Positions 1 through 17,447 of a stretch of 64,000 nt of DNA are shown one piece after another. The stretch covers positions 1 through 64,000 of the forward strand of contig NZ_BANH01000040.1 in the NCBI RefSeq assembly GCF_000964465.1, written 5' to 3'. A program made the position numbers and the translations under genes. Origin of the DNA: Gluconobacter thailandicus F149-1 = NBRC 100600. GTDB taxonomy: Bacteria > Pseudomonadota > Alphaproteobacteria > Acetobacterales > Acetobacteraceae. The notes under the pieces are model-generated. The model was not told the origin of the DNA. It worked only from the letters and a program-made list of their open reading frames with translations, and did not search any database. The first letter of the stretch is position 1, and every line of letters starts with the position of its first letter.

Positions 1-53
1 GAGCTTGAATCACATCAGATCGATTTTCCAAACAGGCTCTAAGGATTATGATA

Positions 54-72
54 TATATAAGATTCTTATATA
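54..72. repeat. 19-bp perfect palindrome at the end of the tetR gene
   Basis: Nine-base arms TATATAAGA and TCTTATATA flank a single central base. The right arm overlaps the stop codon (66-68) of the minus-strand TetR gene. It may help end tetR transcription or bind a protein. There is no GC stem with a U-run, so it is not a standard terminator. Confidence 0.4.
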
Positions 73-719
73 GAAACAATTCTCAAAATTGTCTCGATAT
101 TAAAGCGAATGCGTTCTGCCTGAGCTGTTTCGGACATTAGTTCCCGTTCGAAAATGATTGAACCCGTGTACTGGTTGGTGAAGTAATAGTAACTGACAGC
201 TGCGATGGTGATATTGAGCTGTACCGGGTCAACACCGTCTCGGAAGAGTCCTTGTGTCACCCCGCGCTTCAAAATTTTGTCGACCAGACCAACAAACCGT
301 CGGCTAACAATTTTGACAGGTTCTGAGGTCTTGAGATGTCGGGCCTGAGCCAGGTTTTCGCTGTTCACCAGTGAAATGAATTCTGGATTCTGGATGTAAT
401 AGTTCCAAGTGAAGCGAACGAGTCTTTCAAGAGCGTCTCTTGGGTCCAGACTATCCAGATCCAGCTTTTTTTCGGATTCCCGAATGTCGAAATAGGCGTT
501 TTCCAGCACCGTCTGGAAGAGTTTCTCTTTGCTTTCAAAATAGTGGTAAATCATGCGCTTGTTGGCATTGGCTTCCAGCGCAATCGCATCGACGCGCGCG
601 CCCTCGAGGCCGTTGCGTGCAAATTCCTTCTTTGCAGCATCAAGGATACGGCCCTTGGTGGCTTCGGCATCCCGGATACGGGGACGGGCGGGCTGTGTGT
701 CTGTGGGCTGTGCGCTCAA
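66..719 (-). CDS. TetR/AcrR family transcriptional regulator
   Basis: This 217-residue protein has an N-terminal TetR helix-turn-helix at about residues 20-65, with the typical run KGRILDAAKKEFARNG and then KRMIYHYFESKEKLF. The helical ligand-binding domain contains NPEFISLVNSENL, a pattern I associate with regulators of catabolic operons. It diverges from the aldehyde dehydrogenase gene across a 469-bp gap carrying an inverted repeat and direct repeats. By position it is the likely ligand-responsive repressor of the catabolic cluster to its right. Whether it also binds the two TAACTA operators at 4335 and 7367 is inference. The ligand is unknown. Confidence 0.9.
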   Translation of the reverse strand: MSAQPTDTQPARPRIRDAEATKGRILDAAKKEFARNGLEGARVDAIALEANANKRMIYHYFESKEKLFQTVLENAYFDIRESEKKLDLDSLDPRDALERLVRFTWNYYIQNPEFISLVNSENLAQARHLKTSEPVKIVSRRFVGLVDKILKRGVTQGLFRDGVDPVQLNITIAAVSYYYFTNQYTGSIIFERELMSETAQAERIRFNIETILRIVSI

Positions 720-1188
720 CGGAGGGTCTCGCTTTTGCTGGAACGGGCCGGAAGTTTTCCCGCTTTATGGCGAGAAATGATCAGACGTCAAAACATCACA
801 TAAAAAATCACATAGAAAAGCGATTTATATATCACTATAACGTGATTTATGAGATTTTCCGTTATGCGCTACCAAAGTAACCAGTCGGTGCAAAAGGGAG
901 TTTCCCTTCCAGGAGCGAGAAGGAGGAATTCGACGGGCAAGATGGAAGCAATATCCCAGAGCAGAAGTTTTTTCTGAAACATTCTGGGTTGAACGGCTTT
1001 CCTCTGGAGAGGCCCGTTTCCGGATATCGCCCGTCAATGAAGCGTCCCTTTTTGAAGCCGTTGGTGTGAAGAACGTTCAAGAGAATCTGTAGCGTTAAAG
1101 ATTTTGAGCTGATGACCGTCTTCTCACAGCAGAAACTGAAACGGCGATGTGTCTGCACAATCGCCAGAAAGACAGGGAGAAGCCGTCC
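720..1188. promoter_or_regulatory. Divergent control region between tetR and the catabolic cluster
   Basis: No convincing gene lies here. The AT-rich part at 790-850 holds ATCACATA at 795-802 and again at 807-814. An inverted repeat ATCAC-TATAAC-GTGAT lies at 831-846. The three ATCAC copies start at 795, 807 and 831, in steps of 12 and 24 bp. A second inverted repeat, AAGGGA-gtt-TCCCTT, lies at 894-908. These are plausible TetR operators and promoter elements. The rest, about 910-1188, looks like untranslated leader with no clear structure. Confidence 0.5.
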
Positions 1189-2685
1189 ATGAACAAGATG
1201 GCACAGAAACTGGCTCCATCCGGAGTTGCTCGTGACTTTGGATTTTTCATCGATGGTGAGTGGCGCCACGGACGTGAGATGTTCGAGCGCAAATCTCCCA
1301 GTCATGATGTTGTAGTCACGCGGATTGCACGTTGCACGGAAGAGGATCTGAACGACGCAGTGGCTGCTGCCCGCCGTGCGTTTGAAAACGGCACATGGGC
1401 TGGTCTGGCAAGTTCGGAACGTAGTGCGATCCTGTTGAAGACGGCAGAACTGCTGAAGCAGCGCCGCGACGATATTGCCTTCTGGGAAGTGCTGGAAAAC
1501 GGCAAGCCGATCTCACAGGCCAAGGCCGAGATCGACAACTGTATTTCCTGTTTCGAGATGGCTGCGGGTGCCGCACGTCTTCTGCATGGAGACAGCTTTA
1601 ACAATCTTGGCGAGAGCCTGTTCGGCATGGTTCTGCGGGAGCCGGTCGGGGTTGTTGGCCTCATTACGCCCTGGAACTTCCCGTTCATGATCCTGTGTGA
1701 GCGCGTGCCATTCATTCTGGCATCCGGCTGCACAGTTGTTGTGAAGCCAGCGGAAGTGACCAGCGCCACCACGCTGATGCTCGCCGATATTCTGACAGAA
1801 GCTGGCCTGCCAAAGGGCGTCTATAACGTCGTAACCGGCACGGGCAAAAGCGTTGGGCAGGCCCTGACGCAGCATCCGGATGTAGACATGCTCTCCTTCA
1901 CCGGCTCCACCGGGGTTGGCCGGTCCTGCATTCATGCGTCCGCAGACAGCAACCTCAAGAAGCTTGGCCTGGAGCTTGGTGGCAAGAACCCGATCGTCGT
2001 CTTCGCGGATAGTGATCTGGAAGATGCGGCCGATGCGGTGGCCTTCGGGATCAGCTTCAACACCGGGCAGTGCTGCGTCTCGTCCAGCCGCTTGATTGTC
2101 GAAGAGTCCGTGGCCGACAAGTTTGAGAAGCTGGTTGTCGCCAAGATGGAAAAGATCCGCGTGGGTGACCCGTTCGACCCGGAAACGCAGATTGGCGCCA
2201 TCACAACGGATGCGCAGAACAAAACCATTCTTGATTATATTGAGAAGGGTAAGGCCGAAGGCGCGCGCGTTCTGTGTGGTGGCAACAAGGTCGATCTGGG
2301 TCGTGGGCAGTACATCGCGCCAACGCTCTTCACGAATGTGAAGCCGGACATGTCGATTGCGACAGACGAAATCTTTGGTCCTGTGCTGTCAGTCTTCCGG
2401 TTCGGCACCCTTGAAGAAGCGATCTCCCTGGCCAATGACACGGCTTATGGTCTGGCGGCGTCTGTCTGGACGAAGGACATCAGCAAGGCCCTGAAGGTGA
2501 CACGCAAGGTTCAGGCCGGGCGCTTCTGGGTCAACACGATCATGGCTGGCGGCCCCGAAATGCCGCTGGGTGGTTTCAAGCAGTCCGGCTGGGGCCGTGA
2601 AGCGGGGATGTACGGAGTGGAGGAATACACCCAGATCAAATCCGTTCACGTCGATCTCGGTAAACGGACGCACTGGATCTCCTGA
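1189..2685 (+). CDS. NAD(P)-dependent aldehyde dehydrogenase
   Basis: It oxidises an aldehyde to the carboxylic acid with NAD(P)+, in the cytoplasm. The 498-residue length is normal for the ALDH superfamily. Visible motifs are PWNFP (cofactor domain), ELGGKNP with the general base Glu262, GQCC with nucleophile Cys296, and EIFGPVL near the C-terminus. I chose the ATG at 1189 because a GGGAGA ribosome site lies just upstream; the ATG at 1147 would add 14 residues not typical of the family. The GMC oxidoreductase gene starts one base after this stop codon, so the two enzymes probably act in sequence (alcohol, aldehyde, acid). The natural substrate cannot be read from the sequence. Confidence 0.92.
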   Translation: MNKMAQKLAPSGVARDFGFFIDGEWRHGREMFERKSPSHDVVVTRIARCTEEDLNDAVAAARRAFENGTWAGLASSERSAILLKTAELLKQRRDDIAFWEVLENGKPISQAKAEIDNCISCFEMAAGAARLLHGDSFNNLGESLFGMVLREPVGVVGLITPWNFPFMILCERVPFILASGCTVVVKPAEVTSATTLMLADILTEAGLPKGVYNVVTGTGKSVGQALTQHPDVDMLSFTGSTGVGRSCIHASADSNLKKLGLELGGKNPIVVFADSDLEDAADAVAFGISFNTGQCCVSSSRLIVEESVADKFEKLVVAKMEKIRVGDPFDPETQIGAITTDAQNKTILDYIEKGKAEGARVLCGGNKVDLGRGQYIAPTLFTNVKPDMSIATDEIFGPVLSVFRFGTLEEAISLANDTAYGLAASVWTKDISKALKVTRKVQAGRFWVNTIMAGGPEMPLGGFKQSGWGREAGMYGVEEYTQIKSVHVDLGKRTHWIS

Positions 2686-2686
2686 T

Positions 2687-4279
2687 ATGACTGGTTTCGA
2701 TTACGTTGTCGTTGGTGGCGGCTCGGCAGGATGTGTTCTTGCCGCCCGTCTTTCCCGAAACCCGGCGGTGCGCGTCTGCCTGATTGAAGCAGGCAAGCGT
2801 GACACCAATCCGCTCATTCACATGCCGGTTGGTTTTGCGAAAATGACGACAGGTCCCCTGACATGGGGGCTTGTCACCACACCGCAGAAACACGCCAACA
2901 ATCGCCAGATTCCGTATGTGCAGGCGCGTGTTCTGGGTGGTGGGTCTTCCATCAATGCCGAGGTCTTCACGCGTGGTCACCCGTCCGATTTCGATCGGTG
3001 GGAAGAGGAGGGGGCAGACGGCTGGGGATTCAAAAACATCCAGAAGTACTTCATTCGCTCCGAAGGAAATTCTATTCTTGCCGGATCATGGCACGGAACG
3101 GATGGTCCACTTGGCGTGTCGAACCTGGATTGCCCGAACCCCGTCAGCCGCGCCTTCGTGCAGAGCTGTCAGGAAATCGGTATTCCGTACAACCCTGACT
3201 TTAACGGTCCAGTTCAGCAGGGCGCTGGTATTTATCAGCTCACTGTTCGCAATAACCGCCGCTGCTCCACGGCCGTTGGCTATTTGCGTCCAGCCCTGAA
3301 GCGGAAAAATCTGACGGTCATTACTGGCGCAACGGTTCTGAAGATTGTCTTTGAAGGCAAGCGGGCCGTTGGCGTTCAGTACGTGGCTGACAGGCAGGTT
3401 CATACCGCCCGTGCAGAGCAGGAAGTGCTTGTCACGTCCGGTGCAGTCGGAACGCCAAAGCTGATGATGCTGTCTGGTGTTGGTCCCGCTGCGCACCTGA
3501 AAGAACACGGGATTCCGGTTGTTCATGATCTGCCAGGTGTCGGCCAGAACCTTCAGGACCACTTTGGTGTCGATATCGTCGCCGAGCTGAAAGGCCATGA
3601 CAGTTTCGACAAGTACAACCAGTTCAAGTGGATGATGTGGGCTGGTCTGCAATATTCGCTGTTCGCAAGTGGCCCCGTTGCCTCGAACGTCGTGGAAGGG
3701 GGAGCCTTCTGGTACGGCGATCCGGCTGCAAGTTGCCCGGATCTTCAGTTCCATTTCCTTGCAGGTGCAGGCGCGGAAGCGGGTGTGGCCTCCGTGCCAA
3801 AAGGAACGTCAGGTATTACGCTCAACAGCTATACGCTCCGTCCAAAAGCGCGCGGGTCCGTCACGCTGCGTTCATCAGATCCGCGGGAAGCGCCGATTGT
3901 GGATCCGAACTTCCTTGGACATCCGGATGACCTGCGGACCACGGCAGAAGGCGTTCGCCTGAGCTATGAGATGTTCGGCAGTCATTCGCTGCAGAAATAC
4001 ATCCGTAAAGTCTGCCTGCCAGAAGGTGGTGGCCGCACGATCAAAGCTTATGAGGAGTATGCCCGACAGCAGGGGCGCACATCCTATCATCCGACCTGTA
4101 CCTGCAAGATGGGCCGGGACGAGATGGCTGTGGTTGACCCGCGACTGCATGTGCACGGTCTGGAAGGCATCCGGATTTGTGACAGTTCGGTCATGCCCTC
4201 GTTGCTCGGGTCCAACACCAATGCGGCAACAGTCATGATTGGTGAACGAGCGGCGGATTTCATTCTGGGGAATGCCTGA
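2687..4279 (+). CDS. GMC family FAD-dependent alcohol (choline-type) dehydrogenase
   Basis: A 530-residue flavoprotein of the glucose-methanol-choline family. The N-terminal FAD-binding motif is VVVGGGSAGCVLAARLS, and the second family signature is near SGAVGTPKLMMLSGVGP. The C-terminal catalytic region has HPTCTCKMG with His468 as catalytic base and GSNTNAATVMIGE with Asn510/Asn512. Members oxidise a primary alcohol to the aldehyde and pass electrons to a quinone or other acceptor. It starts one base after the ALDH stop, so translational coupling is likely. A longer in-frame start at 2570 lies inside the ALDH gene and is rejected. An 89-bp gap with its own operator separates it from the next gene. 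Confidence 0.92.
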   Translation: MTGFDYVVVGGGSAGCVLAARLSRNPAVRVCLIEAGKRDTNPLIHMPVGFAKMTTGPLTWGLVTTPQKHANNRQIPYVQARVLGGGSSINAEVFTRGHPSDFDRWEEEGADGWGFKNIQKYFIRSEGNSILAGSWHGTDGPLGVSNLDCPNPVSRAFVQSCQEIGIPYNPDFNGPVQQGAGIYQLTVRNNRRCSTAVGYLRPALKRKNLTVITGATVLKIVFEGKRAVGVQYVADRQVHTARAEQEVLVTSGAVGTPKLMMLSGVGPAAHLKEHGIPVVHDLPGVGQNLQDHFGVDIVAELKGHDSFDKYNQFKWMMWAGLQYSLFASGPVASNVVEGGAFWYGDPAASCPDLQFHFLAGAGAEAGVASVPKGTSGITLNSYTLRPKARGSVTLRSSDPREAPIVDPNFLGHPDDLRTTAEGVRLSYEMFGSHSLQKYIRKVCLPEGGGRTIKAYEEYARQQGRTSYHPTCTCKMGRDEMAVVDPRLHVHGLEGIRICDSSVMPSLLGSNTNAATVMIGERAADFILGNA

Positions 4280-4334
4280 AGACAATGTTTTCAGGCGCTT
4301 CCTCGCAAACGACATATTTTTACGCGACCAAAAG

Positions 4335-4352
4335 TAACTAATAAGATAGTTA
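4335..4352. promoter_or_regulatory. 18-bp operator-like inverted repeat before the CoA-transferase gene
   Basis: The sequence is TAACTA-ATAAGA-TAGTTA, perfect 6-bp arms with a 6-bp centre, ending 16 bases before the ATG at 4369. The same arms with the same spacing occur at 7367-7384 before the acyl-CoA dehydrogenase gene. Size and symmetry suit a TetR-type dimer. Position over the promoter or leader suggests repression. The regulator is not proven. Confidence 0.65.
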
Positions 4353-4368
4353 TATTGGATCAGAGGCA

Positions 4369-5940
4369 ATGACCAAGACCAGAACCGCAGCAGAAGCCGT
4401 CAGTCTCATCAAGGACGGGGTCACCATCGCAATCAACGCGTCGTCCGGCCTCCTGTGCCCCGATGACGTTTTGAAAGCTCTTGGTGAGCGTTTCGAAAAA
4501 GAAGCCGCGCCGAAAAACCTGACGACAATCCATCCGATTGCGACGGGGGACATGTTCGGAACAAAGGGCGTGGATCACCTTGCCCAGCCTGGCATGATCC
4601 GGAAGATCATTGGTGGGTCTTACCCGTCTGGTCCGAGCAATGCGGAGCCACCGCTCATCTGGCAGCGCATTCTGGCCGAAGACGTGGCGGCTTATAATCT
4701 CCCATCCGGCGTTATTTTCGACATGCTGCGAGAAGGTGCGGCACTACGTCCCGGTGTGCTGACGAAGGTTGGCCTCGATACGTTTGTAGACCCGAAACGG
4801 GAAGGCGGTGCGATGAATGCGTCCGCACGGGCTAACCCGATCGTGCGTCACATGGACTTCGAGGGCGAAGACTGGCTGTATTTTCCGGCGCTGAAACCGG
4901 ATGTGGCAATCATTCGCGCTTCGACAGCGGACGAAAATGGCAACCTGACATTCGAGCAGGAAGGCGCCACGCTGGGCGCGATGGAAATGGCATTGGCGGC
5001 TCATAATAACGGCGGCCTAGTCATCGCGCAGGTTCGCTGCGTAGCAGAGCAGGGCACGCTGAAACCGCATGATGTCAAGGTACCGGGTATTCTCGTGGAC
5101 GTTGTCGTGGAAGCCCCCGATCAGCTTCAGACGACTGCCACGCCTTACGACCCTGCAATTTCCGGCGAGATTTTCCGGCCTCTATCGTCCTTCGCCATTC
5201 CGGACTTCAACCCGGGCAAGGTCATTGCACGACGAGTAGCGCAGGAACTGAAGGATGGCTGGGCCGTCAATATCGGGTTCGGTATTTCCGCGAATGTGCC
5301 GCGCATCCTGCTGGAGGAAGGCCTGCATGGCAGCGTGACGTGGGTCATCGAGCAGGGACCTGTCGGTGGTGTTCCACTGCTGGACTTCAAGTTCGGCTGT
5401 GCGAGTAATGCCGAGGCGTTCGTCGCCTCTCCCCATCAGTTCAGCTACTTCCAGGCTGGCGGCTTTGACTGCTCCCTGCTGTCCTTCCTTGAGATCGGGG
5501 CTGATGGATCGGTCAATGTCAGCCGCCTTGCTGCCACGCCGCATCGCACCGCGGGCGCAGGCGGGTTTGTGGACATTACGGCACGCGCCAAGCGCATCAT
5601 CTTCTCAGGCAATTTTAATGCCGGTGCCAAGATGTATATCGAGGACGGTCGGCTGGTGATTGATCGGGAAGGCAAGATTTCCAAGATCGTGCCGGAAGTG
5701 GATCAGGTCAGCTTCTCGGGGCCTAGAGCGACTGAAACAGGGCAGGACGTGACGTATGTGACGGAACGCTGTGTTCTCAAGCTTCTGAATGGTGAACTGA
5801 CGGTTACGGAAATCGCACCGGGCATTGATCTGCAGAAAGACGTGCTCGATCAGGCTTCTACGCCGCTGAAGGTTTCTCCTGAACTGAAGGAAATGGATGC
5901 CGTTCTGTTCAGGGATGCCGTGATGGGTCTCCGGCTCTGA
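4369..5940 (+). CDS. Family I acyl-CoA transferase (YdiF/propionate CoA-transferase-like)
   Basis: The 523-residue single chain fuses the two halves (alpha and beta) of a SCOT-type CoA-transferase, as in propionate CoA-transferase and YdiF. Such enzymes move CoA from a donor such as acetyl- or succinyl-CoA to a free acid through a glutamyl-CoA thioester. The candidate catalytic residue is Glu328 in VIEQGPVGG, at the position expected for this family. N-terminal CoA-binding features include DGVTIAINASSG and IHPIATGDMFGTKG. In this cluster it would activate the acid made by the ALDH to an acyl-CoA for the acyl-CoA dehydrogenase. An operator repeat sits just upstream. Exact acid specificity is unknown. 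Confidence 0.88.
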   Translation: MTKTRTAAEAVSLIKDGVTIAINASSGLLCPDDVLKALGERFEKEAAPKNLTTIHPIATGDMFGTKGVDHLAQPGMIRKIIGGSYPSGPSNAEPPLIWQRILAEDVAAYNLPSGVIFDMLREGAALRPGVLTKVGLDTFVDPKREGGAMNASARANPIVRHMDFEGEDWLYFPALKPDVAIIRASTADENGNLTFEQEGATLGAMEMALAAHNNGGLVIAQVRCVAEQGTLKPHDVKVPGILVDVVVEAPDQLQTTATPYDPAISGEIFRPLSSFAIPDFNPGKVIARRVAQELKDGWAVNIGFGISANVPRILLEEGLHGSVTWVIEQGPVGGVPLLDFKFGCASNAEAFVASPHQFSYFQAGGFDCSLLSFLEIGADGSVNVSRLAATPHRTAGAGGFVDITARAKRIIFSGNFNAGAKMYIEDGRLVIDREGKISKIVPEVDQVSFSGPRATETGQDVTYVTERCVLKLLNGELTVTEIAPGIDLQKDVLDQASTPLKVSPELKEMDAVLFRDAVMGLRL

Positions 5941-5984
5941 ACGCGCCGGGCCGCATTTTCCGTGAGTGGAGTCTGAAAGAAGTC

Positions 5985-7244
5985 ATGACAGTCGACGATC
6001 ACAGTTTCCTGACAGGTCTGTTCAATGCAGCCATTACCGCCGCGGATGCAGACCTTATACTGGCTGCCAATCTGCCAGAACGCCCAAAGGGCAAGACGGT
6101 GGTGGTTGGAGCCGGAAAGGGCGCAGCCCAGCTCGCCGCAGCGTTCGAGCGCGTATGGGGTGGTCCGCTGGAGGGGGTGGTCGTCACCCGTTATGGCTAT
6201 GGCTACCCCACGAAACAGATCCGTGTTCTGGAGGCCGCTCACCCCGTCCCGGATGAAGCTGGTCTGGCTGCGACGGCTGCCCTGTTCGAAGCTGTGCGGG
6301 GACTGGGTCCGGATGATCTGGTCGTCGCTCTGATCTGCGGTGGTGGGTCGGCGTTGCTGCCGAGCCCACCAGAAGGCTTTACGCTGGAAGATGAAGCAGA
6401 ACTCAGCCGGGTTCTTCTGTCATCTGGCGCGCCGATCTCCGTCATGAACATCATTCGAAAGCAGTTTTCGGGCATTAAGGGCGGCCGTCTGGCTGCTGTC
6501 GCTGCCCCGGCAAAAGTGGTCTCACTCGTGGTTTCGGATGTCCCGTTCGATGATCCGGCGCAGGTTGCGTCCGGCCCAACAGTGCCCGACACAAAGACCC
6601 GTGAAGATGCAAGGCATATGGCCAAGGCCTGGAAGCTGGCTCTTCCGCCAAAGGTGCAGGCCTGGCTTGACGGGGACCTCGGACAGGCGCCCCGGCCTGA
6701 TGATCCGGCATTCGCCGGGCATGAAGTCCGGATCGTGGCGTCGGCTCATCTGTCTCTGGAAGCAGCGGCAGCGGCGTCCCGGAATCTCGGCATTCCCGCC
6801 GTTATCCTGTCCGATGCGATCGAAGGGGAAGCGCGGGATGTCGGGAAGGTTCATGCGGCGATTGCCCGTGAGGTCAGTATCCGCAATCAGCCTTTTCAGA
6901 AGCCGGTCGTCATCCTGTCGGGTGGCGAAACAACGGTGACCCTGCGTGGGCGCGGGCGCGGCGGACGCAATACAGAGTTTCTTCTGTCCTTTGCGCTCGC
7001 GGCTGAAGGCCTGCCTGTTTCCGCGCTTGCGGCGGATACGGACGGAATTGACGGGTCTGAGGATAACGCCGGGGCCTTTGCAGATGGGGAGAGCATGGGG
7101 CGGCTAAGGGAGCGTGGGATCAACCCGTCCGTCCTGCTGGCGGAAAACGATGCCTATACTGCTTTTGAGGCCTTGGATGATCTGTTTGTTCCAGGTCCAA
7201 CGGGAACAAACATCAATGATTTTCGCGCTATTCTGCTGAGGTAG
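5985..7244 (+). CDS. Glycerate 2-kinase / MOFRL family protein
   Basis: A 419-residue member of the GckA/TtuD family, older name hydroxypyruvate reductase, with the GCK domain followed by the C-terminal MOFRL domain. Visible family features are VVGAGKGAAQLA near residue 40, CGGGSALL, VLSGGETTVTLRGRGRGGRN and the end FVPGPTGTNINDF. The usual reaction phosphorylates D-glycerate to 2-phosphoglycerate with ATP. It follows the CoA-transferase by 44 bp and is probably cotranscribed. Its presence implies that the pathway releases glycerate, or hydroxypyruvate/tartronate semialdehyde that is reduced to glycerate, into lower glycolysis. Confidence 0.9.
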   Translation: MTVDDHSFLTGLFNAAITAADADLILAANLPERPKGKTVVVGAGKGAAQLAAAFERVWGGPLEGVVVTRYGYGYPTKQIRVLEAAHPVPDEAGLAATAALFEAVRGLGPDDLVVALICGGGSALLPSPPEGFTLEDEAELSRVLLSSGAPISVMNIIRKQFSGIKGGRLAAVAAPAKVVSLVVSDVPFDDPAQVASGPTVPDTKTREDARHMAKAWKLALPPKVQAWLDGDLGQAPRPDDPAFAGHEVRIVASAHLSLEAAAAASRNLGIPAVILSDAIEGEARDVGKVHAAIAREVSIRNQPFQKPVVILSGGETTVTLRGRGRGGRNTEFLLSFALAAEGLPVSALAADTDGIDGSEDNAGAFADGESMGRLRERGINPSVLLAENDAYTAFEALDDLFVPGPTGTNINDFRAILLR

Positions 7245-7366
7245 AAAAAGATGGCGAAGTAAAAACTGTTGTTGAGCGAGAACGAATTCATTCTGGTTAT
7301 TACGACTATCAAGTTCTTTTGATTTCATAATGCAGAATGGCCTTGAAAACAGATTAGCCAACATAC
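7245..7366. promoter_or_regulatory. Promoter region of the acyl-CoA dehydrogenase unit
   Basis: The 160-bp gap after the glycerate kinase is clearly AT-richer than the flanking genes. It contains a possible -35 element TTGAAA at 7343-7348 and ends in the perfect operator palindrome described separately. A new transcription start here is likely, which would give a second unit of the same regulon. Confidence 0.4.
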
Positions 7367-7384
7367 TAACTAACCGGTTAGTTA
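7367..7384. promoter_or_regulatory. 18-bp perfect palindrome operator before the acyl-CoA dehydrogenase gene
   Basis: TAACTAACCGGTTAGTTA is a perfect palindrome, ending 20 bases before the ATG at 7405. Its outer six bases on each side are identical to those of the repeat at 4335-4352, with the same overall length. This looks like a TetR-family dimer site controlling both transcription units. Confidence 0.75.
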
Positions 7385-7404
7385 TCAATTAAGGGAATCG
7401 GGTT

Positions 7405-8547
7405 ATGTTTCTCAATGAAATTCAGGAGCAGGTTCGCGAAACCACGCGGTCTTTCGTGGATGAAGTCATTCGTCCTGCTGCTGAGGCCCTCGACCGCGAA
7501 GAGCGTTTCCCGGCCGAAATCTATGAAGAAATGGGCCGTCTGGGCCTGTTCGGCATTGCTGTTCCGGAAGAGCTGGGTGGGCCTGGTTTCGATACCCTGA
7601 CCTATGCCGTCGTGATGGAAGAACTGTCCCGCGGCTACGCCAGCGTTGCCGACCAGTGCGGTCTGGTGGAACTGATTTCCACACTGCTGGTGCGTCACGG
7701 CACGGATGAGCAGAAAGCCCTTTTGCCAGACATTCTCTCCATGAAGCGCAAAGTCGCTTACTGCATCACCGAGCCGGAAGCTGGCACAGATGTGTCCGGT
7801 ATCCGCACCACCGTAGAGCGGGATGGAGATGGCTGGGTTCTGAATGGCGGCAAAATCTGGATCCATAATGCTCCGGTAGCGGATCTCGGGTTCGTTCTGG
7901 CTCGGACCGACAAGGAAGCCGGCAACCGTGGCATGTCCATCTTCATTGTGGACCTGCACGCCAAGGGTGTTGAGCGCGGCCCGAAGGAACACAAGATGGG
8001 CCAGCGCGCGAGCCAGGTCGGTGCGCTTGATTTCACCAATGTGCGTCTGGGTTCTAACGCCCTTCTGGGCGAGATGAACCGTGGCTTTCACATGATGATG
8101 AGCGTGCTGGACAAGGGGCGCGTTGGTATTGCAGCGCTCGCCGTTGGTATTGCACAGGCTGGGCTGGAAGCTGCTGTGGATTATGCCGGAACGCGTAAGC
8201 AGTTTGGCAAGCACATCTCGGAATTCCAAGGCGTTCAGTGGCTTCTGGCCGATATGGCCAAGGACATCGAAGCTGCCCGTCTGCTGGTCCATTCCGCAGC
8301 TGTGAAAATTGACAACGGGCAGGATGCTACACGCTCCTGCTCCATGGCGAAGTGCTTTGCCGGTGACATGGCGGTGGCCCGTACGGCCGATGCGGTGCAG
8401 GTTTTCGGCGGGTCTGGCTATATCCGTGGCTTTGAAGTCGAGCGCCTGTATCGCGACGCCAAGATCACGCAGATCTACGAAGGCACGAACCAGATCCAGC
8501 GCATGATCATCGCGCGTGAACTGCTCAAGAAGGGCGCCCGTGCATGA
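7405..8547 (+). CDS. Acyl-CoA dehydrogenase, short-chain type
   Basis: A 380-residue FAD enzyme that removes two hydrogens from the alpha and beta carbons of an acyl-CoA and passes electrons to ETF. Family signatures are CITEPEAGTDVSG in the middle domain, FGGSGYIRGFEVERLYRD, and the catalytic glutamate in YEGTNQIQ near the C-terminus. Its length and the position of that Glu fit short-chain or branched-chain members. The genes for its electron acceptor (etfB, etfA, ETF-QO) follow in the same run. No enoyl-CoA hydratase or thiolase is encoded nearby, so this is not a complete beta-oxidation operon. It overlaps the next gene by 4 bp. Confidence 0.93.
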   Translation: MFLNEIQEQVRETTRSFVDEVIRPAAEALDREERFPAEIYEEMGRLGLFGIAVPEELGGPGFDTLTYAVVMEELSRGYASVADQCGLVELISTLLVRHGTDEQKALLPDILSMKRKVAYCITEPEAGTDVSGIRTTVERDGDGWVLNGGKIWIHNAPVADLGFVLARTDKEAGNRGMSIFIVDLHAKGVERGPKEHKMGQRASQVGALDFTNVRLGSNALLGEMNRGFHMMMSVLDKGRVGIAALAVGIAQAGLEAAVDYAGTRKQFGKHISEFQGVQWLLADMAKDIEAARLLVHSAAVKIDNGQDATRSCSMAKCFAGDMAVARTADAVQVFGGSGYIRGFEVERLYRDAKITQIYEGTNQIQRMIIARELLKKGARA

Positions 8548-9311
8548 AACAGGTCGCTCTCGTCACCGGCTCTTCACGCGGGATCGGCCTGGCCGCTGCG
8601 GAAGCGCTCGCTAAAGAAGGCTTTTCTTTAGCGGTCAACGGTCCGGTTGATGATGCAGAACTGCGTGCCGCTGTCGCCCGTCTGGAAGGGCTTGGCGCAA
8701 AGGTTGTGGCTGCCCCGTTCGACGTCTCCGACATCAGCGCCCATGAGGGTGTTCTGGCGCGGATCGAAGACGAACTCGGCCCGCTGACAACGCTGGTGAA
8801 CAATGCGGGCGTCGGCGTCCTCCAGCGGGGCGACCTGCTGGATGTGTCGGAAGCAAGCTGGGACCGGTGCCTGACGATCAATGCGAAGGCGATGTTCTTT
8901 CTGTCGCAGGCTTTCGCCAAGCGTCTTTTGGGGCGGGAACGGTCAGCGGATGCGTTCCATTCGATCGTCAATGTCACATCGTCGAACGCGACGGCTGTGG
9001 CAGTGCAACGGTCTGAATACTGCGCGTCAAAGGCTGCGGCGGCCATGGTGTCCAAGGCTCTGGCCGTTCGGCTCGGGATCGAGAATATCGCGGTCTATGA
9101 CGTTCAGCCTGGCCTGATCGCTACAGAAATGACGGCTGCCGTGATCCAGCACTACCGCCAGCGCGCGGAAGAGGGACTGACCCTGCTTCCCCGTGTTGGA
9201 GAGCCCTCGGACATGGGGCGCATCATCGCGGCCCTTGCCACCGGGAAACTGCCTTACACCACAGGCCAAGTCATTTCGGCGGATGCCGGAATGCTTGTGC
9301 CGCGCTTCTGA
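8544..9311 (+). CDS. SDR family NAD(P)-dependent oxidoreductase (3-ketoacyl-ACP reductase-like)
   Basis: A 255-residue classical short-chain dehydrogenase. The Rossmann motif is TGSSRGIG at residues 8-15, NNAG marks strand 4, and the catalytic residues are Ser in NVTSSNA and Tyr/Lys in YCASK. It starts inside the last codons of the acyl-CoA dehydrogenase gene (ATGA overlap), which implies coupled translation. Together with the DUF993 and TIM-barrel isomerase genes that follow, it forms a sub-cluster of the kind I associate with rhizobial carbohydrate catabolism, so the substrate is more likely a hydroxy group on a sugar-derived compound than fatty acyl-ACP. Confidence 0.88.
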   Translation: MKQVALVTGSSRGIGLAAAEALAKEGFSLAVNGPVDDAELRAAVARLEGLGAKVVAAPFDVSDISAHEGVLARIEDELGPLTTLVNNAGVGVLQRGDLLDVSEASWDRCLTINAKAMFFLSQAFAKRLLGRERSADAFHSIVNVTSSNATAVAVQRSEYCASKAAAAMVSKALAVRLGIENIAVYDVQPGLIATEMTAAVIQHYRQRAEEGLTLLPRVGEPSDMGRIIAALATGKLPYTTGQVISADAGMLVPRF

Positions 9312-9320
9312 GAAACGGTT

Positions 9321-10469
9321 ATGAAGATCATCCTGCCCGACGAAACCGGCCGGAAGATGGATTACCATCTGATCGGTACTCCTGTTCCTCGCAGTGTCCT
9401 TCCTGCCAATCCGGCCCGGATCGTCTACTCGGCGGCCCATGTCGTCGCAGATCCGTTTACGGATAATGCACCCTCCGGCCGCGCCACGATTGACTGGAAG
9501 AAGACGCTTGAGTTCCGTCGCTATCTCGTCGGTATGGGCCTTGGAATTGCGGAAGCCATGGATACGGCCCAGCGCGGCATGGGGCTGGACTGGCCCGGCG
9601 CGCTGGATCTGATCCGTCGCACCAAGGCCGAACTGCCGGATGCGATGGTCGTGAACGGCGCGGGGACAGACCATCTGGACCCGAAGGATGCACGGTCCGT
9701 CGATCAGGTGCTCGCAGCCTATCTGGAACAGGTCGAGGCGATCCAGAAGGTTGGCGCACGGGTCATCCTGATGGCCAGCCGTGCCCTCGTTCGCGTGGCG
9801 TCCAGTGCTGAGGACTATAAGCGGGTCTACCGCGAAGTGCTCTCTGCCTGTGATGAGCCTGTCGTTCTGCACTGGCTGGGCAAGGATTTCGATCCGGCTC
9901 TGGCAGGCTATTGGGGCACGGATGACTTCAGTGAGGCGCTGGAAACAGTGCTGAGCATCATTGAAGAAAACGTCTCGAAGGTGGACGGCATCAAGATTTC
10001 CCTTCTCGACAAGGAGAAGGAAATCATCATGCGTCGACGCCTGCCCAAGGGCGTGCGGATGTATACGGGTGATGACTTCAATTACCCGGAACTGATCGCC
10101 GGTGACGAGCAGGGCTACAGCCACGCGCTTCTCGGAATCTTCGATCCGATCGCGCCACTGGCGGCACGGGGGGTAAAACTGCTGGGTGAAGGCAATGTGA
10201 AAGGGTTTCACGACGCGCTTGATCCGACTGTTCCGCTGGCTCGCGTGATCTTTCAGGCTCCCACGCAGTACTACAAGACGGGTGTGGTGTTTCTGGCCTG
10301 GCTGAATGGCTTTCAGGATCACTTCGTCATGCTGAATGGTGCGCAGTCCATGCGGTCCCTCCAGCATTTCACGGAGATTTTCCGTCTGGCGGATGGCTGC
10401 GGCCTGCTGCGGAATCCAGATCTGGCCGTGCACCGCATGAAGTCGCTTCTGACGATGTACGGGGCCTGA
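9321..10469 (+). CDS. DUF993 family protein, aldolase-like (dihydrodipicolinate synthase superfamily)
   Basis: A 382-residue cytoplasmic protein of a family usually annotated as DUF993 or dihydrodipicolinate synthase family. It has a TIM-barrel feel, with the segment VDGIKISLLDKEKE in which Lys225 is placed like the Schiff-base lysine of DapA-type aldolases (typical GIKE). That assignment is inference. DapA relatives join or split pyruvate-type ketoacids and aldehydes, so this protein could perform the carbon-carbon cleavage of the pathway. It sits 9 bp after the SDR and 2 bp before the isomerase-like gene, a tight operon. No reaction is established to my knowledge. Confidence 0.8.
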   Translation: MKIILPDETGRKMDYHLIGTPVPRSVLPANPARIVYSAAHVVADPFTDNAPSGRATIDWKKTLEFRRYLVGMGLGIAEAMDTAQRGMGLDWPGALDLIRRTKAELPDAMVVNGAGTDHLDPKDARSVDQVLAAYLEQVEAIQKVGARVILMASRALVRVASSAEDYKRVYREVLSACDEPVVLHWLGKDFDPALAGYWGTDDFSEALETVLSIIEENVSKVDGIKISLLDKEKEIIMRRRLPKGVRMYTGDDFNYPELIAGDEQGYSHALLGIFDPIAPLAARGVKLLGEGNVKGFHDALDPTVPLARVIFQAPTQYYKTGVVFLAWLNGFQDHFVMLNGAQSMRSLQHFTEIFRLADGCGLLRNPDLAVHRMKSLLTMYGA

Positions 10470-10471
10470 TC

Positions 10472-11329
10472 ATGCGGGACTTTCGCCACGATCATTCGGC
10501 TCTCGCCCTCAATACCGCAACGCTTGGCCATAATGTACCGGGTGTCGGGGCAGGGTGGTCACCGGAACAGACGATCGACGCCTGTGCCGAACATGGCATT
10601 GGCGGGATCGTGTTCTGGCGGCGGGAGATCGAAGGCCGGGCTGCGGAAATCGGAGACCGGGCGCGCCAGGCTGGCGTGAAGGTTGTCGGCCTGTGCCGGA
10701 CGCCGTTTCTGGTCGGGCCGCTGGGTCTTCAGAGCGAAGAGGCGATCCTGTCGGACTTTCATTTGTCCATCGACCAGACGGCTGCGCTTGGAACGGATGT
10801 TCTGACCATCGTTGTCGGTGGAGTGGAAACTGGCACGAAGGGCGTAACCCGCAGCCTGGACATCGTGGCGGACCGGATGGCGAAAGCCATTCTTTATGCT
10901 GAGGCCTGTGGCGTGAAACTCGCGCTGGAGCCGTTGCATCCGGCTTATGCCGGAGACCGATCCTGCCTCACGACTACCCGTGACGCCCTGGATCTGTGCG
11001 ACCTTCTGGCGTCGGACAGCGTGGGTGTGGCGATCGATATCTACCATGTGTGGTGGGACACGGACCTGCCACGCCAGCTCGCTCGTGCGGGAAACCGCAT
11101 TCTGGGCTTTCACCTCTGTGACTGGCTCGTTCCCACAACCGACATCCTGCTTGATCGCGGGATGATGGGGGACGGCGTTGCAGACCTGCGGGGGATCCGC
11201 AGGGAGGTGGAAGCCGCCGGATATTCCGGCTTCTGCGAGGTGGAAATCTTTTCCGCGAATAACTGGTGGAAGCGCCACCCGGCTGACGTGCTGGACACGA
11301 TGGTCGAACGCTTCCGCACTGTCTGCTGA
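10472..11329 (+). CDS. Sugar phosphate isomerase/epimerase-like TIM barrel (xylose isomerase-like)
   Basis: A 285-residue member of the AP-endonuclease-2/xylose-isomerase-like TIM barrel family. Likely metal ligands appear in order in LALEPLHP (Glu), AIDIYHVWW (Asp/His), FHLCDWL (His/Asp) and CEVEIFS (Glu), the usual Glu-Asp/His-His-Glu pattern. Relatives isomerise or epimerise sugars, ketoacids or inosose, or hydrolyse such compounds. Its start follows the DUF993 stop by two bases. It probably prepares the substrate for the aldolase-like partner or processes its product. Confidence 0.83.
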
Positions 11330-11345
11330 CCCATCGGAGGGCATC

Positions 11346-12107
11346 ATGAAGATCCTCGTCCCTGTCAAACGTGTCGTCGATTACAACGTCCGCATCCGCG
11401 TAAAGGGTGACGGCTCTGGGGTCGAGCTTGCGAACGTCAAGATGTCGGTCAATCCGTTTGACGAAATCGCCATCGAAGAAGCGGTCCGTCTCAAGGAAAA
11501 AGGCATCGCCACGGAAGTGGTCGCTGTCTCTATCGGTGTGCCGCAGGCGAAGGAAACACTGCGAACCGTGCTCGCCATGGGCGCGGACCGCGCCATTTTC
11601 GTTGAAGCCACGACGGATGTGAATGTGGATATCGAGCCTCTCGCCGTCGCCAAACTGCTGGCAAAGGTGATCGAGGAAGAGAAACCGAACCTCGTCATCG
11701 CGGGCAAGCAGGCCATTGATAACGACATGAACGCGACCGGTCAGATGCTCGCCGCCCTGCTGGGCTGGGGGCAGGCCACGTTCGCGTCGTCTGTCGAGAT
11801 TGAAAACGACAGTGCAACCGTCAGCCGTGAGGTTGATGGTGGCCTTCAGACCATCCGCGTGAAGTTGCCTGCGATCATCACGTCAGACCTGCGCCTGAAC
11901 GAACCGCGCTATGTCGCGCTGCCCAACATCATGAAGGCCAAGAAGAAGCCGCTCGAAGAACGCAAGGCGTCTGACCTTGGCGTGGATATTGCGCCCCGTC
12001 TGAAGGTCATCCGTACGGCTGAACCGCCTCAGCGTCAGGCCGGTGTGAAGGTCAGTTCCGTTGATGAGCTGGTTTCGAAACTCAAGACTGAAGCAGGAGT
12101 GATCTGA
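11346..12107 (+). CDS. etfB: Electron transfer flavoprotein beta subunit
   Basis: The 253-residue protein begins [20 protein letters not shown], the standard EtfB N-terminus, so the ATG at 11346 (with GGAGG upstream) is chosen over an open frame reaching back to 11178. The family signature region is [25 protein letters not shown] near residues 117-140. EtfB and EtfA form the heterodimer that takes electrons from acyl-CoA dehydrogenases. Its stop overlaps the etfA start (TGATG). The pair lies in one run with its presumed donor and acceptor, so the electron chain is encoded as a unit. Confidence 0.95.
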
Positions 12108-13033
12108 TGTCTGTTCTGCTGCTCGCTGAAGTGGCCAATGGCCACCTCGCTACCGATACCGTTGCCAAGGCCCTTTCCGCTGTCAAAGCGCTGGGTGATG
12201 TAACGGTTCTCATTGCCACCCAGAACGGTGCGGATGCTGCTGCTGAAGCTGCAAAGCTCGATGGTGTGTCCAAGGTTCTGCTGGCGGATGACGCGTCTCT
12301 GGCCCATGAACTGGCTGAACCTGTCGCCGCCCTCATCGTGTCTTTGGCATCCGGCTATAGCCATATCGCTGCGGGCTCGACGGCGTTCTCCAAGAACGTT
12401 CTGCCACGCGTTGCGGCTCTGCTGGATGTCATGATCCTGTCAGACGTAACGGCCGTGAAGGATGCCGAGACGTTCGATCGCCCGGTTTACGCCGGCAATG
12501 CGATCCAGACCGTTCAGTCTTCCGATCCGGTGAAGGTTTTCACCATTCGTACGGCGGCTTTCTCGGCTGTTGGGGAAGGTGGTTCTGCCAATGTGGAAAA
12601 TGTCTCCGTTCCGGCTGATCCGGGTCTGTCGTCCTGGGTGGAAGACAAGGCAGTTGAATCCGAACGTCCGGAACTGACGGCAGCCAAGAACATCGTCTCA
12701 GGTGGCCGTGGCGTCGGATCGAAAGAGAACTTCGACACCATCGCCCGGCTTGCGGACAAGCTGAATGCCGCCATCGGCGCCAGCCGTGCTGCTGTGGATG
12801 CCGGATATGCGCCGAATGACTGGCAGGTCGGGCAGACGGGCAAGATCGTGGCGCCTGATCTGTATATCGCGGTCGGTATCTCCGGGGCGATCCAGCATCT
12901 GGCGGGCATGAAGGATTCCCGGGTGATCGTTGCCATCAACAAGGACGAAGACGCTCCGATTTTCCAGGTCGCGGATTACGGACTGGTGGGAGACCTCTTC
13001 ACCATCCTTCCCGAACTGACGGCAAAACTCTGA
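12107..13033 (+). CDS. etfA: Electron transfer flavoprotein alpha subunit
   Basis: A 308-residue FAD-binding subunit. The C-terminal FAD domain shows [32 protein letters not shown] and the signature region [20 protein letters not shown], followed by [19 protein letters not shown]. It partners EtfB to carry electrons from the acyl-CoA dehydrogenase to ETF-QO. Its ATG shares one base with the etfB stop codon. Confidence 0.96.
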
Positions 13034-13065
13034 CAGGCCAGCGGCCTGCAGGGAGGAGAAAGACC

Positions 13066-14718
13066 ATGACTACGATCGAACGGGAAAGCATGGACTATGA
13101 CATTGTCATCGTCGGCGCTGGCCCTGCCGGTCTCTCCGCGGCGATCCGGCTCAAACAGAACGAGCCAGACCTCTCCGTGGTCGTACTGGATAAAGGGTCT
13201 GAAGTCGGGGCGCATATCCTGTCAGGCGCGGTCATTGATCCGTGCGCGCTGGATGTGCTGCTCCCTGACTGGCGGACCATGGACGCGCCCATCACCGTGC
13301 CGGTGAGGGAAGACAATTTCTTCCTGCTGACGGAAAAGAGCCAGATCCGCCTGCCGAACAGCATGATGCCAAAACTCATGGACAACCATGGGAATTACAT
13401 CGTCTCGCTCGGGAACGTCTGCCGCTGGCTGGCACAGGTTGCGGAAGGTCTGGAGGTGGAAATCTTCCCCGGCATGGCGGCGAGCGAGATCGTTTATGAC
13501 GATCAGGGTCGGGTCGCGGGGGTTGTGGCCGGAGAGTTCGGCAAGAACCCGGATGGAACGCCGGGTAATGCCTATGAACCGGGTATGGAGCTTCGCGGGA
13601 AATACGTATTCTTCGCGGAAGGGGCACGGGGGTCACTGGCCCGTCAGTTGATGGACCGGTTCGCGCTTTCCGAAGGTAAAGACCCGCAGAAATTCGGGCT
13701 GGGCCTCAAGGAAATCTGGGAAATCGATCCCGCCAAGCATCATGAAGGCACGGTCACGCACACCATGGGCTGGCCGCTGAACAGCAAAGCCGGTGGCGGG
13801 TCCTTCATCTACCATCTCGACAACAATCAGGTCTGCGTCGGGTTCGTCGTCCATCTCGGCTATGAAAACCCGTATCTGGACCCGTATCGCGAGTTCCAGG
13901 AGTTCAAGCATCATCCGATGGTGGCCGAACTGCTGAAGGGTGGAAAGCGTGTGGCCTATGGGGCTCGTGCGCTTTCGGAAGGCGGTTGGCAGTCCATCCC
14001 CAGGGTGACTTTCCCTGGTGGCGTCCTGCTTGGCTGTTCCGCCGGGCTGGTGAATGTCCCGCGCATCAAGGGAAGCCACAACGCCATTTTCTCCGGCATC
14101 GCGGCTGCCGATGCCGCGCGGTCTGCTCTGGCTGCGGGTAGGGCACAGGATGAACTGACGGCTTATGAAGACGAACTCCGCAACGGCCCTGTTGGCGCGG
14201 ACCTCAAACCTGTTCGCAACGTCAAACCGCTGTGGGAGCGTTTCGGGCTGATCGGGGGCGTCGCACTCGGTGGCCTTGATGTGTGGGTGACCAGCCTGAT
14301 CGGGTATTCCCCGTTCCGGACCCTTCACCATGGCAAATCCGATGCCGCAGCAACGGGGCTGGCCTCACAGTTCAAGCGGATCGACTATCGCAAACCGGAC
14401 GGCGAACTCAGCTTCGACCGGACGACCAACGTGGCGTTCTCCTTTACGAACCATGAAGAACGCCAGCCATGTCATCTGCCACTGCGTGATCCTTCTGTCC
14501 CGGTAACGGTCAATCTGCCGCTCTATGACGAACCGGCCCAGCGATATTGCCCGGCGGGTGTTTACGAAGTTCTGCGGCCGGAGGGCGAGCAGCCACGCTT
14601 TCAGATCAACTTCCAGAATTGCGTGCACTGTAAAACCTGCGACATCAAAGACCCGAGTCAAAATATCGTCTGGACAACGCCGCAGGGTGGTGATGGTCCG
14701 AACTATCCGAACATGTAA
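13066..14718 (+). CDS. Electron transfer flavoprotein-ubiquinone oxidoreductase
   Basis: A 550-residue membrane-associated iron-sulfur flavoprotein that passes electrons from reduced ETF to ubiquinone. The N-terminal FAD motif is DIVIVGAGPAGLSAAIRL. The 4Fe-4S ligands are in the C-terminal part, in CPAGVYEV and NCVHCKTCDIKDP. The final residues around GDGPNYPNM are characteristic of the family. It lies 32 bp after etfA with its own ribosome site (GGAGGAG). It completes the route acyl-CoA dehydrogenase, ETF, ETF-QO, quinone pool, which feeds the respiratory chain typical of acetic acid bacteria. Confidence 0.96.
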   Translation: MTTIERESMDYDIVIVGAGPAGLSAAIRLKQNEPDLSVVVLDKGSEVGAHILSGAVIDPCALDVLLPDWRTMDAPITVPVREDNFFLLTEKSQIRLPNSMMPKLMDNHGNYIVSLGNVCRWLAQVAEGLEVEIFPGMAASEIVYDDQGRVAGVVAGEFGKNPDGTPGNAYEPGMELRGKYVFFAEGARGSLARQLMDRFALSEGKDPQKFGLGLKEIWEIDPAKHHEGTVTHTMGWPLNSKAGGGSFIYHLDNNQVCVGFVVHLGYENPYLDPYREFQEFKHHPMVAELLKGGKRVAYGARALSEGGWQSIPRVTFPGGVLLGCSAGLVNVPRIKGSHNAIFSGIAAADAARSALAAGRAQDELTAYEDELRNGPVGADLKPVRNVKPLWERFGLIGGVALGGLDVWVTSLIGYSPFRTLHHGKSDAAATGLASQFKRIDYRKPDGELSFDRTTNVAFSFTNHEERQPCHLPLRDPSVPVTVNLPLYDEPAQRYCPAGVYEVLRPEGEQPRFQINFQNCVHCKTCDIKDPSQNIVWTTPQGGDGPNYPNM

Positions 14719-14841
14719 AAATTAAATAAAGAGAAATATAAATAGTCTCTTTTATTTGATTTTACCTGTTAGGATAACACTAGAACATGAATAATTAAAG
14801 GCTGTTCCCCTAATTGGAACCTGAAGAAGAGGAACAAGGCA
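14719..14841. promoter_or_regulatory. AT-rich gap: likely terminator of the ETF unit and promoter of the transporter
   Basis: At 14723-14757 an AT-rich stem (AAATAAAGAGA against TCTCTTTTATTT, one bulged base) ends in T-rich sequence and may terminate the catabolic transcript. A short inverted repeat TGTTA-GGA-TAACA lies at 14767-14779, possibly an operator. The ribosome site GAAGAAGAGGAA precedes the ATG at 14842. Confidence 0.4.
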
Positions 14842-16239
14842 ATGAGTGGCATCGACCTTTCGGCATCGCCGCCAGTGTCCCTGAATGGTAAAAGTGTTCT
14901 GACCGCAATTCTGGCTGCGGTCGCGGGGCTGATGTTCGGCCTCGATCTCGGTGTGATTTCAGGCGCCCTGAAATTCATCGGTCAGGAATTCAACGTGACG
15001 GATTTCGGCAAGGAGTGCATCGTCTCGGCCATGATGGTCGGGGCGGCGCTGGGCGCAGTCTCCGGCGGGCGGCTCTCTTTCCTCTTCGGCCGCAAACGCC
15101 TGCTGCTGTCTTCCGCTTTTCTGTTCGTTTTAGGCTCGCTGCTCTGCGCGCTGGCAACGTCCGTCACGTTTCTCATCATCGGACGAATGGTGCTGGGTGT
15201 GTCTGTTGGCATCGCCAGCTTTACCGCTCCACTTTACATCTCCGAAATCGCCCATCAGCACTACCGTGGGTCCCTGATCTCGGTTTATCAGCTCATGATC
15301 ACGGTCGGGATTTTCGTAGCGTTCATCTCCGATGCGCTGCTGGCTTACTCCGGTTCCTGGCGCTGGATGCTGGGTATCGTGGCCATTCCCGGCGTGGTCT
15401 TCCTCCTGGGCGTGCTCCTGCTGCCGGACAGCCCGCGCTGGCTGGTTCTGCGCGGCCGTAAGGACGAAGCCTTCACGGTCCTGCATGAACTCCGTGGACA
15501 TGAGGGAGAAGCACGCTCTGAAATTGCAGACATTGAGGAGCAGCTCGCACAGATCGAAGGCGGTTACGGTCTTTTCAAGGCCAATGCCAACTTCCGTCGT
15601 TCCGTGTTCCTCGGGATTCTGCTTCAGACCATGCAGCAGTTCACTGGCATCATCGTGGTCATGTACTACGCACCGCGCATCTTCGAAGTCGCAGGCTTCG
15701 GCGATAATGCGGCCATGTGGGGTACGGCGATCGTTGGACTGGTGAATGTGCTCTCCACGTTCATTGCCATTGGCTTCGTGGACAAATGGGGCCGCCGTCC
15801 GATGCTGATCGCCGGTTTTATCATCATGACGATCGGCATGTTCACGGTTGGCACGCTCCTCTACTTCGGAACGGGTGACAGCGAACTGGCCCGTTATGGG
15901 GCGGTTACGATGCTTCTGGCCTTCATCGTGGGATTCGCGTTCTCCGCCGGGCCGCTGGTGTGGATCCTGTGCTCGGAAGTGCAGCCCATCAAGGGACGTG
16001 ACTTCGGCATTGCCTGCTCCACCTTCACCAACTGGGTCACGAACATGATCGTTGGCCTGACGTTCCTGACGCTCCTGAACACGATCGGCAACGCTCAGAC
16101 CTTCTGGATGTACGCCGCCTTCAATGCCTTCTTCATCTACCTGACCCTGAAATTCGTGCCTGAAACACGCGGCGTGACGCTCGAGCAGATCGAGCGGAAT
16201 CTCATGGCCGGCAAGCCCCTTAACCGGATCGGCCTGTGA
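14842..16239 (+). CDS. MFS sugar/proton symporter (sugar porter family)
   Basis: A 465-residue, 12-helix inner-membrane transporter of the sugar porter family, closest in look to GalP/XylE-type hexose or pentose:H+ symporters. Motifs seen are GVISGALKFI in helix 1, GRLSFLFGRKR after helix 2, PLYISEIAH with RGSLISVYQL in the middle, PDSPRWLV before the central loop, DKWGRRP, and the terminal PETRGVTLEQIE. It follows the ETF genes after a 123-bp gap and may import the substrate of the upstream pathway, though it could equally be an independent sugar gene paired with GAPDH. Confidence 0.93.
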   Translation: MSGIDLSASPPVSLNGKSVLTAILAAVAGLMFGLDLGVISGALKFIGQEFNVTDFGKECIVSAMMVGAALGAVSGGRLSFLFGRKRLLLSSAFLFVLGSLLCALATSVTFLIIGRMVLGVSVGIASFTAPLYISEIAHQHYRGSLISVYQLMITVGIFVAFISDALLAYSGSWRWMLGIVAIPGVVFLLGVLLLPDSPRWLVLRGRKDEAFTVLHELRGHEGEARSEIADIEEQLAQIEGGYGLFKANANFRRSVFLGILLQTMQQFTGIIVVMYYAPRIFEVAGFGDNAAMWGTAIVGLVNVLSTFIAIGFVDKWGRRPMLIAGFIIMTIGMFTVGTLLYFGTGDSELARYGAVTMLLAFIVGFAFSAGPLVWILCSEVQPIKGRDFGIACSTFTNWVTNMIVGLTFLTLLNTIGNAQTFWMYAAFNAFFIYLTLKFVPETRGVTLEQIERNLMAGKPLNRIGL

Positions 16240-16271
16240 CACCGCGTTCTGACATCACTTCTGGCAAGACG

Positions 16272-16299
16272 GTCCCGGCGCTCTCACGCCTGCCGGGAC
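16272..16299. other. Hairpin between the transporter and gap
   Basis: GTCCCGGC (16272-16279) pairs with GCCGGGAC (16292-16299) across a 12-base loop. No U-run follows, so it may be a processing or attenuating hairpin rather than a terminator. Confidence 0.3.
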
Positions 16300-16356
16300 A
16301 ATCCGCTGCCGTGGCTTCTTCCCAGCAGTGGTTTTCCCTCACGGAGACCCAAGACA

Positions 16357-17376: not shown

Positions 17377-17415
17377 CGTGCTGACAAGTTTGTTTCGCTC
17401 TGTGAATCGGAGCAT

Positions 17416-17446
17416 AAAAGCACTTTCCTGACTGGAGAGTGCTTTT
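17416..17446 (+). terminator. Terminator-like hairpin after gap, enclosing the next gene's ribosome site
   Basis: AAAAGCACT (17416-17424) pairs with AGTGCTTTT (17438-17446), ending in four T. The loop holds GGAG at 17434-17437, the probable Shine-Dalgarno of the next ATG at 17448. Read-through and translation of the downstream gene could thus be linked. Confidence 0.6.
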
Positions 17447-17447
17447 C

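Follow-up and report, generated by a model that had tools for sequence, protein, structure and literature searches.

Among the described TetR regulons closest to the present one are those of PsrA, FadP and LiuQ, in which TetR proteins preside over fatty-acid or branched-chain amino-acid breakdown (tabulated in PMC5343134). Here, we analyzed positions 1-64 000 of contig NZ_BANH01000040.1 of Gluconobacter thailandicus F149-1 = NBRC 100600 (hereafter the window, a stretch of 64 kb that starts with base 1 of the contig), in which two operator-like sites precede the genes for a CoA-transferase (CoAT) and an acyl-CoA dehydrogenase (ACD). We consider it highly probable that the TetR-family protein encoded at 66-719 uses both sites as operators; it would repress the CoAT and ACD units, the tetR-aldehyde dehydrogenase (ALDH) region and, in one subclade of the genus, an unlinked MFS transporter, and would be released by a ligand. 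The sites and the regulator gene are as follows.

4335-4352, exact site TAACTAATAAGATAGTTA on the CoAT side, of the form TAACTA-N6-TAGTTA, 16 bases before ATG 4369
7367-7384, exact palindrome TAACTAACCGGTTAGTTA on the ACD side, 20 bases before ATG 7405
877-892, plus strand, third operator GTAACCAGTCGGTGCA, asymmetric (GTAAC-N6-GTGCA), in the tetR-ALDH intergenic region, fourth-ranked matrix position of the window (10.5)
66-719, minus strand, TetR-family regulator gene (TetR_N and TetR_C_29, Pfam matches above cut-off)

The two TAACTA-N6-TAGTTA sites of the preliminary description were found exactly as given, including their distances of 16 and 20 bases from the start codons. They are the only matches with up to two mismatches in the window, where 100 shuffles average 0.03 matches and none reaches two. 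In a genome-wide search, as proposed there, the assembly (3 434 670 bases in 191 contigs) was found to contain two exact copies, both in the window, with one more at one mismatch (C135:345) and 13 more at two. The pattern read backwards, used as a control, gave 186 matches with up to two mismatches. Across the genus, eight exact copies occur in four of 26 genomes, always paired at a distance of 3032 bp and in front of the same two genes. The raw genus count is unremarkable, because the backwards control itself gives six exact matches in five of the 26 genomes; the signal lies in the pairing and placement. A chance origin of the sites was rejected on the basis of the window shuffles, the paired placement in the genus and the conservation in relatives described below.

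Upstream regions were compared at 80 ACD loci, the best of 332 relatives from public genomes, which represent several orders of alphaproteobacteria. ACD identity reaches 98-99% in G. frateurii, G. cerinus and Gluconobacter sp. Gdi, a range from which records nearest to the window genome have possibly been omitted. The motif GTAAC-N6-GTTAC is present within 150 bp before ACD in exact form at 50 of the 80 loci, with up to one mismatch at 65 and with up to two at 73, whereas an in-gene control of equal length gave none in 80 at up to two mismatches and mononucleotide shuffles gave 4/1600 and 91/1600 at up to one and two mismatches, respectively. Orthologous CoAT genes are preceded by the same kind of operator, often ATAACTAGTTAGTTAC. 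The alignment of related upstream regions that had been suggested thus shows the operator to be kept before the orthologues of both genes; since this holds across several orders, the proposal that one regulator serves the CoAT and ACD units is well supported by sequence comparison. The 18 bp frame with a spacer of six, claimed initially as the operator, did not survive as the conserved unit and was rejected: relatives share GTAAC-N6-GTTAC, and they place the TAACTA-type arms two bases apart (GTAACTA-NN-TAGTTAC). In four close genomes, 17 of 18 columns are invariant inside the CoAT operator versus 44 of 77 outside; for the ACD operator the corresponding values (16/18 versus 111/135) show little contrast. 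Two operators precede CoAT at L129, L130, L137, L138, L149 and L151, the second lying ∼70-100 bp further upstream.

A matrix was built from 79 unique sites, every one from outside the acetic acid bacteria. Its top five positions in the window, which occupy only three operator places, are 7366-7381 (18.9), 7370-7385 (16.3), 4334-4349 (14.4), 877-892 (10.5) and 4338-4353 (8.0). In 60 simulated windows the mean maximum was 6.8 (s.d. 2.7) and the largest score was 14.7. The statement that the window holds no third copy therefore stands for the exact pattern but not for the operator derived from relatives, which has an asymmetric third site at 877-892. As scores of at least 10 are expected 0.12 or 0.32 times per 64 kb (two estimates), conservation counts for more than the score in the case for this site. 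The same asymmetric form occurs at the equivalent tetR-ALDH place in other Gluconobacter and in several other acetic acid bacteria, and the operator upstream of tetR orthologues in other orders is mostly asymmetric as well (GTAAC-N6-GTGCR). Among 14 loci outside the acetic acid bacteria, an operator-type site lies upstream of tetR in exact form in 13 and with one mismatch in the remaining one, in a search made looser by admitting any of three right halves on either strand over 260 bp. Within the acetic acid bacteria, which lie outside the training set and here include the window, scores of at least 8 were obtained before 25 of 26 ACD, 17 of 17 CoAT and 24 of 26 ALDH genes; the exceptions were L083 for ACD and, for ALDH, L077 (close to the end of its locus) and L086 (7.0).

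The tetR-ALDH region lacks TAACTA-N6-TAGTTA and contains another palindrome, TATCAC-TATAAC-GTGATT at 830-847, which is conserved in the subclade and scores 6.7 in the matrix (at 831-846). These two facts would suit an arrangement in which an unlinked regulator binds the CoAT and ACD sites and the TetR protein governs only its own neighborhood, through a different palindrome such as 830-847. We regard this as improbable, given that the region does hold the asymmetric operator, which recurs upstream of tetR orthologues from other orders, and that TetR and operator occur together in 42 of 42 genomes tested. The early idea that TetR binds the 830-847 palindrome only was demoted once the operator at 877-892 emerged.

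The 66-719 protein has an N-terminal TetR_N helix-turn-helix domain (PF00440; 52.3 bits, cut-off 24) and a C-terminal ligand-binding and dimerization domain (PF17938, TetR_C_29; 137.1 bits, cut-off 26.2). Judged by sequence alone, its proposed operators have the features expected of the family: they are short palindromes overlapping the predicted target promoters, and its own control region carries one (877-892 and its equivalents, asymmetric). An orthologue of 57-71% identity is present in all 42 genomes tested among the 80 loci, the next relative being at 49%, and a further 19 loci have a TetR of 55-94% identity nearby. One genome, G263, carries an additional partial copy (60% over 78 residues). 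In the genus, TetR (at least 63% identity) is present in 13 of 26 genomes and ACD (at least 94%) in 11, all of which have TetR; in G014, ACD is split over two frames. The tetR gene is divergent and ∼6-7 kb from ALDH in all 14 loci fetched outside the acetic acid bacteria. The recognition helix ANKRM[IL]YHYF is found in 59 of 60 aligned TetR rows, some of which represent the same genome twice. The neighboring TetR, named as a candidate in the preliminary description, is thus conserved along with the operators and the target genes, and is most likely to be the regulator.

The position of the operators relative to promoter elements suggests how repression might be achieved. TTGAC is present within 45 bp in 52 of the 79 ACD upstream regions with an operator and lies 20-23 bases before it in 44 of those 52; an in-gene control for this spacing gave 0/80. 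In the window, the candidate element is the following.

7343-7348, plus strand, possible -35 element TTGAAA, which register 7370-7385 follows after 21 bases, the commonest distance for TTGAC in relatives

An operator placed in this way would cover the -10 end as well as the start site, in keeping with steric repression. Such a position over the expected -10/start region argues against TetR being an activator, or having a mixed role, at these promoters; certain TetR-family proteins do activate, but we think this very unlikely here. Still more remote is the idea that the palindromes work in RNA, as hairpins of the leader, and not as operators in DNA. They can pair with themselves and lie 16-20 bases before start codons, yet in many relatives they follow a -35-like box at a near-fixed distance, and at tetR the form GTAAC-N6-GTGCR, although conserved, would disrupt the hairpin stem. 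In the mechanism that we infer from the conservation and position of the sites and their co-occurrence with tetR, TetR would bind GTAAC-N6-GTTAC-type sites immediately downstream of the -35 box, where the -10/start region is expected. Bound TetR would block the predicted CoAT/glycerate-kinase unit, the predicted ACD/short-chain dehydrogenase (SDR)/DUF993/electron-transfer flavoprotein (ETF) unit, the divergent tetR-ALDH region and, in the window subclade, the unlinked MFS transporter, and a substrate or intermediate of the pathway would release it.

Each of the 4335-4352 and 7367-7384 sites resolves into two overlapping conserved units shifted by 4 bp.

4334-4353, plus strand, operator before CoAT, with registers 4334-4349 (14.4) and 4338-4353 (8.0), holding the 4335-4352 site
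7366-7385, plus strand, operator before ACD, with registers 7366-7381 (18.9) and 7370-7385 (16.3), holding the 7367-7384 palindrome

A second register with a score of at least 6 is present at Gluconobacter loci (the window included) before nine of ten ACD and ten of ten CoAT genes, at 3/55 and 3/45, respectively, outside the acetic acid bacteria, and in other acetic acid bacteria at 5/16 before ACD (scores of 6.8-7.1) and 0/7 before CoAT. Register 7370-7385 looks ancestral, with 7366-7381 added, because the former keeps the modal 21-base TTGAC-type distance. The two linked operators of Gluconobacter, each with its double register, may seat two dimers apiece. A variant that overlaps with this reading, in which a single dimer reads a wider TAAC-N10-GTTA in Gluconobacter, appears unlikely. 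The outer arms do match exactly in the window as well as in its three close relatives, but a 4 bp change would turn the half-sites by ∼140° (from general B-DNA geometry), register 7370-7385 retains the -35 distance of relatives and plain N6 spacing is seen at the unlinked MFS site of these same genomes.

The other genes of the cluster, all on the plus strand, are listed below with their Pfam matches.

1192-2685, plus strand, ALDH (Aldedh)
2687-4279, plus strand, GMC oxidoreductase, choline-dehydrogenase-like (GMC_oxred_N/C)
4369-5940, plus strand, CoAT (CoA_trans)
5985-7244, plus strand, MOFRL-type, glycerate-2-kinase-like protein (DUF4147 and MOFRL)
7405-8547, plus strand, ACD (Acyl-CoA_dh)
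8544-9311, plus strand, SDR (adh_short)
9321-10469, plus strand, DUF993 protein (DUF993)
10472-11329, plus strand, xylose-isomerase-like TIM-barrel protein (AP_endonuc_2)
11346-12107 and 12107-13033, plus strand, ETF subunits (ETF and ETF_alpha)
13066-14718, plus strand, ETF-quinone oxidoreductase (ETF_QO domains)

This gene content suggests a pathway of alcohol-to-acid oxidation, CoA transfer and dehydrogenation coupled to sugar-like uptake, and the regulon probably controls the breakdown of a sugar-like compound. Deoxyribonate pathways also use a glycerate kinase and CoA steps (PMC6365646), but a match between them and this cluster was not established. Two decaying copies of the cluster were seen: L201 (from G014), with GMC and ACD split across frames, and L202 (from G009), with ACD and CoA-transferase fragments beside a full-length glycerate-kinase match and no TetR in the stretch. 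In the window, as at the other Gluconobacter loci, the ETF genes are followed by a sugar-porter MFS gene (14842-16239); no operator was found before it.

A profile search of the 26 genus genomes revealed a probable unlinked target, an MFS gene with GTAACCATTTGGTTAC (C173:85039-85054) lying 24 bases ahead of it. The gene is a core gene, found in 26 of 26 genomes (broken in G022). Its upstream operator, which has plain N6 spacing, is present in all five genomes of the window subclade (G000, G006, G007, G008 and G016; scores of 21.9-26.1), whereas the other 21 genomes lack it (25 rows, maximum score 3.4). Among the matches listed, profile matches occur in 12 of the 13 genus genomes that carry TetR. 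In G000 the genome-wide inventory covers 150 of the 209 candidates; at 7.6 and 7.9 bits, the CoAT and tetR-ALDH sites of the window rank below that listing. An operator-like match within the frame of an OprB porin (G000:C107:19707-19727; C107:19710; L005 1501-1518) is probably due to chance, the protein sequence itself being conserved; weak profile matches (12.8 bits) at G007:C2:551687 and G008:C3:126075 lie ∼600 bp from the porin match.

In a Mesorhizobium genome, the cluster includes a sugar-type ABC transporter. In Gluconacetobacter liquefaciens, an operator (L093:19944-19959; 17.4) lies ∼80 bases upstream of the gene for a sugar-type ABC binding protein that is 82% identical to the Mesorhizobium cluster counterpart. 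No close homologue of this binding protein was found in the 26 Gluconobacter genomes (best 27%), and the MFS gene may have replaced the ABC transporter in the regulon. We put forward only tentatively the wider picture of a regulon spanning Acetobacteraceae, Rhodobacterales and Rhizobiales that links sugar-type uptake to acyl-CoA chemistry, in which the Gluconobacter operators would have been rebuilt as 4 bp-shifted double registers for two dimers and the core MFS gene of one subclade would have been captured after loss of the ABC transporter.

Several observations weigh against repression of these units by the 66-719 TetR. The counts come from related genomes and are hence non-independent, and TetR coverage extends to 42 + 19 of the 80 loci, the other 19 lying outside it. 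TTGAC within 45 bp is absent from 27 of the 79 ACD upstream regions. At neither operator did a general promoter scan detect a promoter on the plus strand, nor did it pick TTGAAA at 7343-7348; its minus-strand result there was one match over 7360-7388, and it gave six promoter-like sites in 1-17500 compared with 6.0 in shuffles. The tetR-ALDH site in the window is weak (10.5) and asymmetric, and only 12 of 37 ALDH upstream regions outside the acetic acid bacteria score at least 8; at the Mesorhizobium locus, which was inspected in detail, ALDH is preceded on its own strand by genes for transporter and alcohol dehydrogenase functions. At L083, where ACD closely follows CoAT, no operator precedes ACD. 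G001 and G008 have TetR without ACD (the G008 contig ends in ALDH), G001 has no profile match among the matches listed, and four of the 13 TetR-lacking genomes have a single weak one among them.

A literature search, with most subscription journals outside its coverage, found no description of the regulon or the cluster. It is probably a conserved TetR regulon of ordinary type with an apparently undescribed target set, larger than the preliminary description saw and with a genus-specific operator variant. The analysis supplies a candidate regulator, operator and targets for a widely conserved catabolic cluster with a DUF993 protein, which opens the inducer and the pathway to tests with simple reporters. 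A further product is a clear example in which a core gene has gained an operator and operators have been remodeled within one genus, and possibly a native promoter for inducible expression in acetic acid bacteria.

The 66-719 protein resembles PsrA, FadP and LiuQ as a TetR protein, a comparison made at the level of protein models. It falls far below the NCBIfam cut-offs for Bacillus FadR (54.3 versus 200 bits) and Vibrio PsrA (30.3 versus 300 bits), and no FadP or LiuQ model appeared in the NCBIfam search. RutR is its second-best NCBIfam match and also a PDB sequence match; the score of 51.6 bits is well short of the cut-off of 368 for the RutR equivalog, and the target genes of RutR differ from those of this cluster. 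TetR regulators of the QacR and CprB type seat two dimers on one operator. The CprB chain aligns only to residues 17-105 of the 66-719 protein, and the overlapping registers in the window, with a shift of 4 bp, suggest an arrangement similar to that of the QacR/CprB type.

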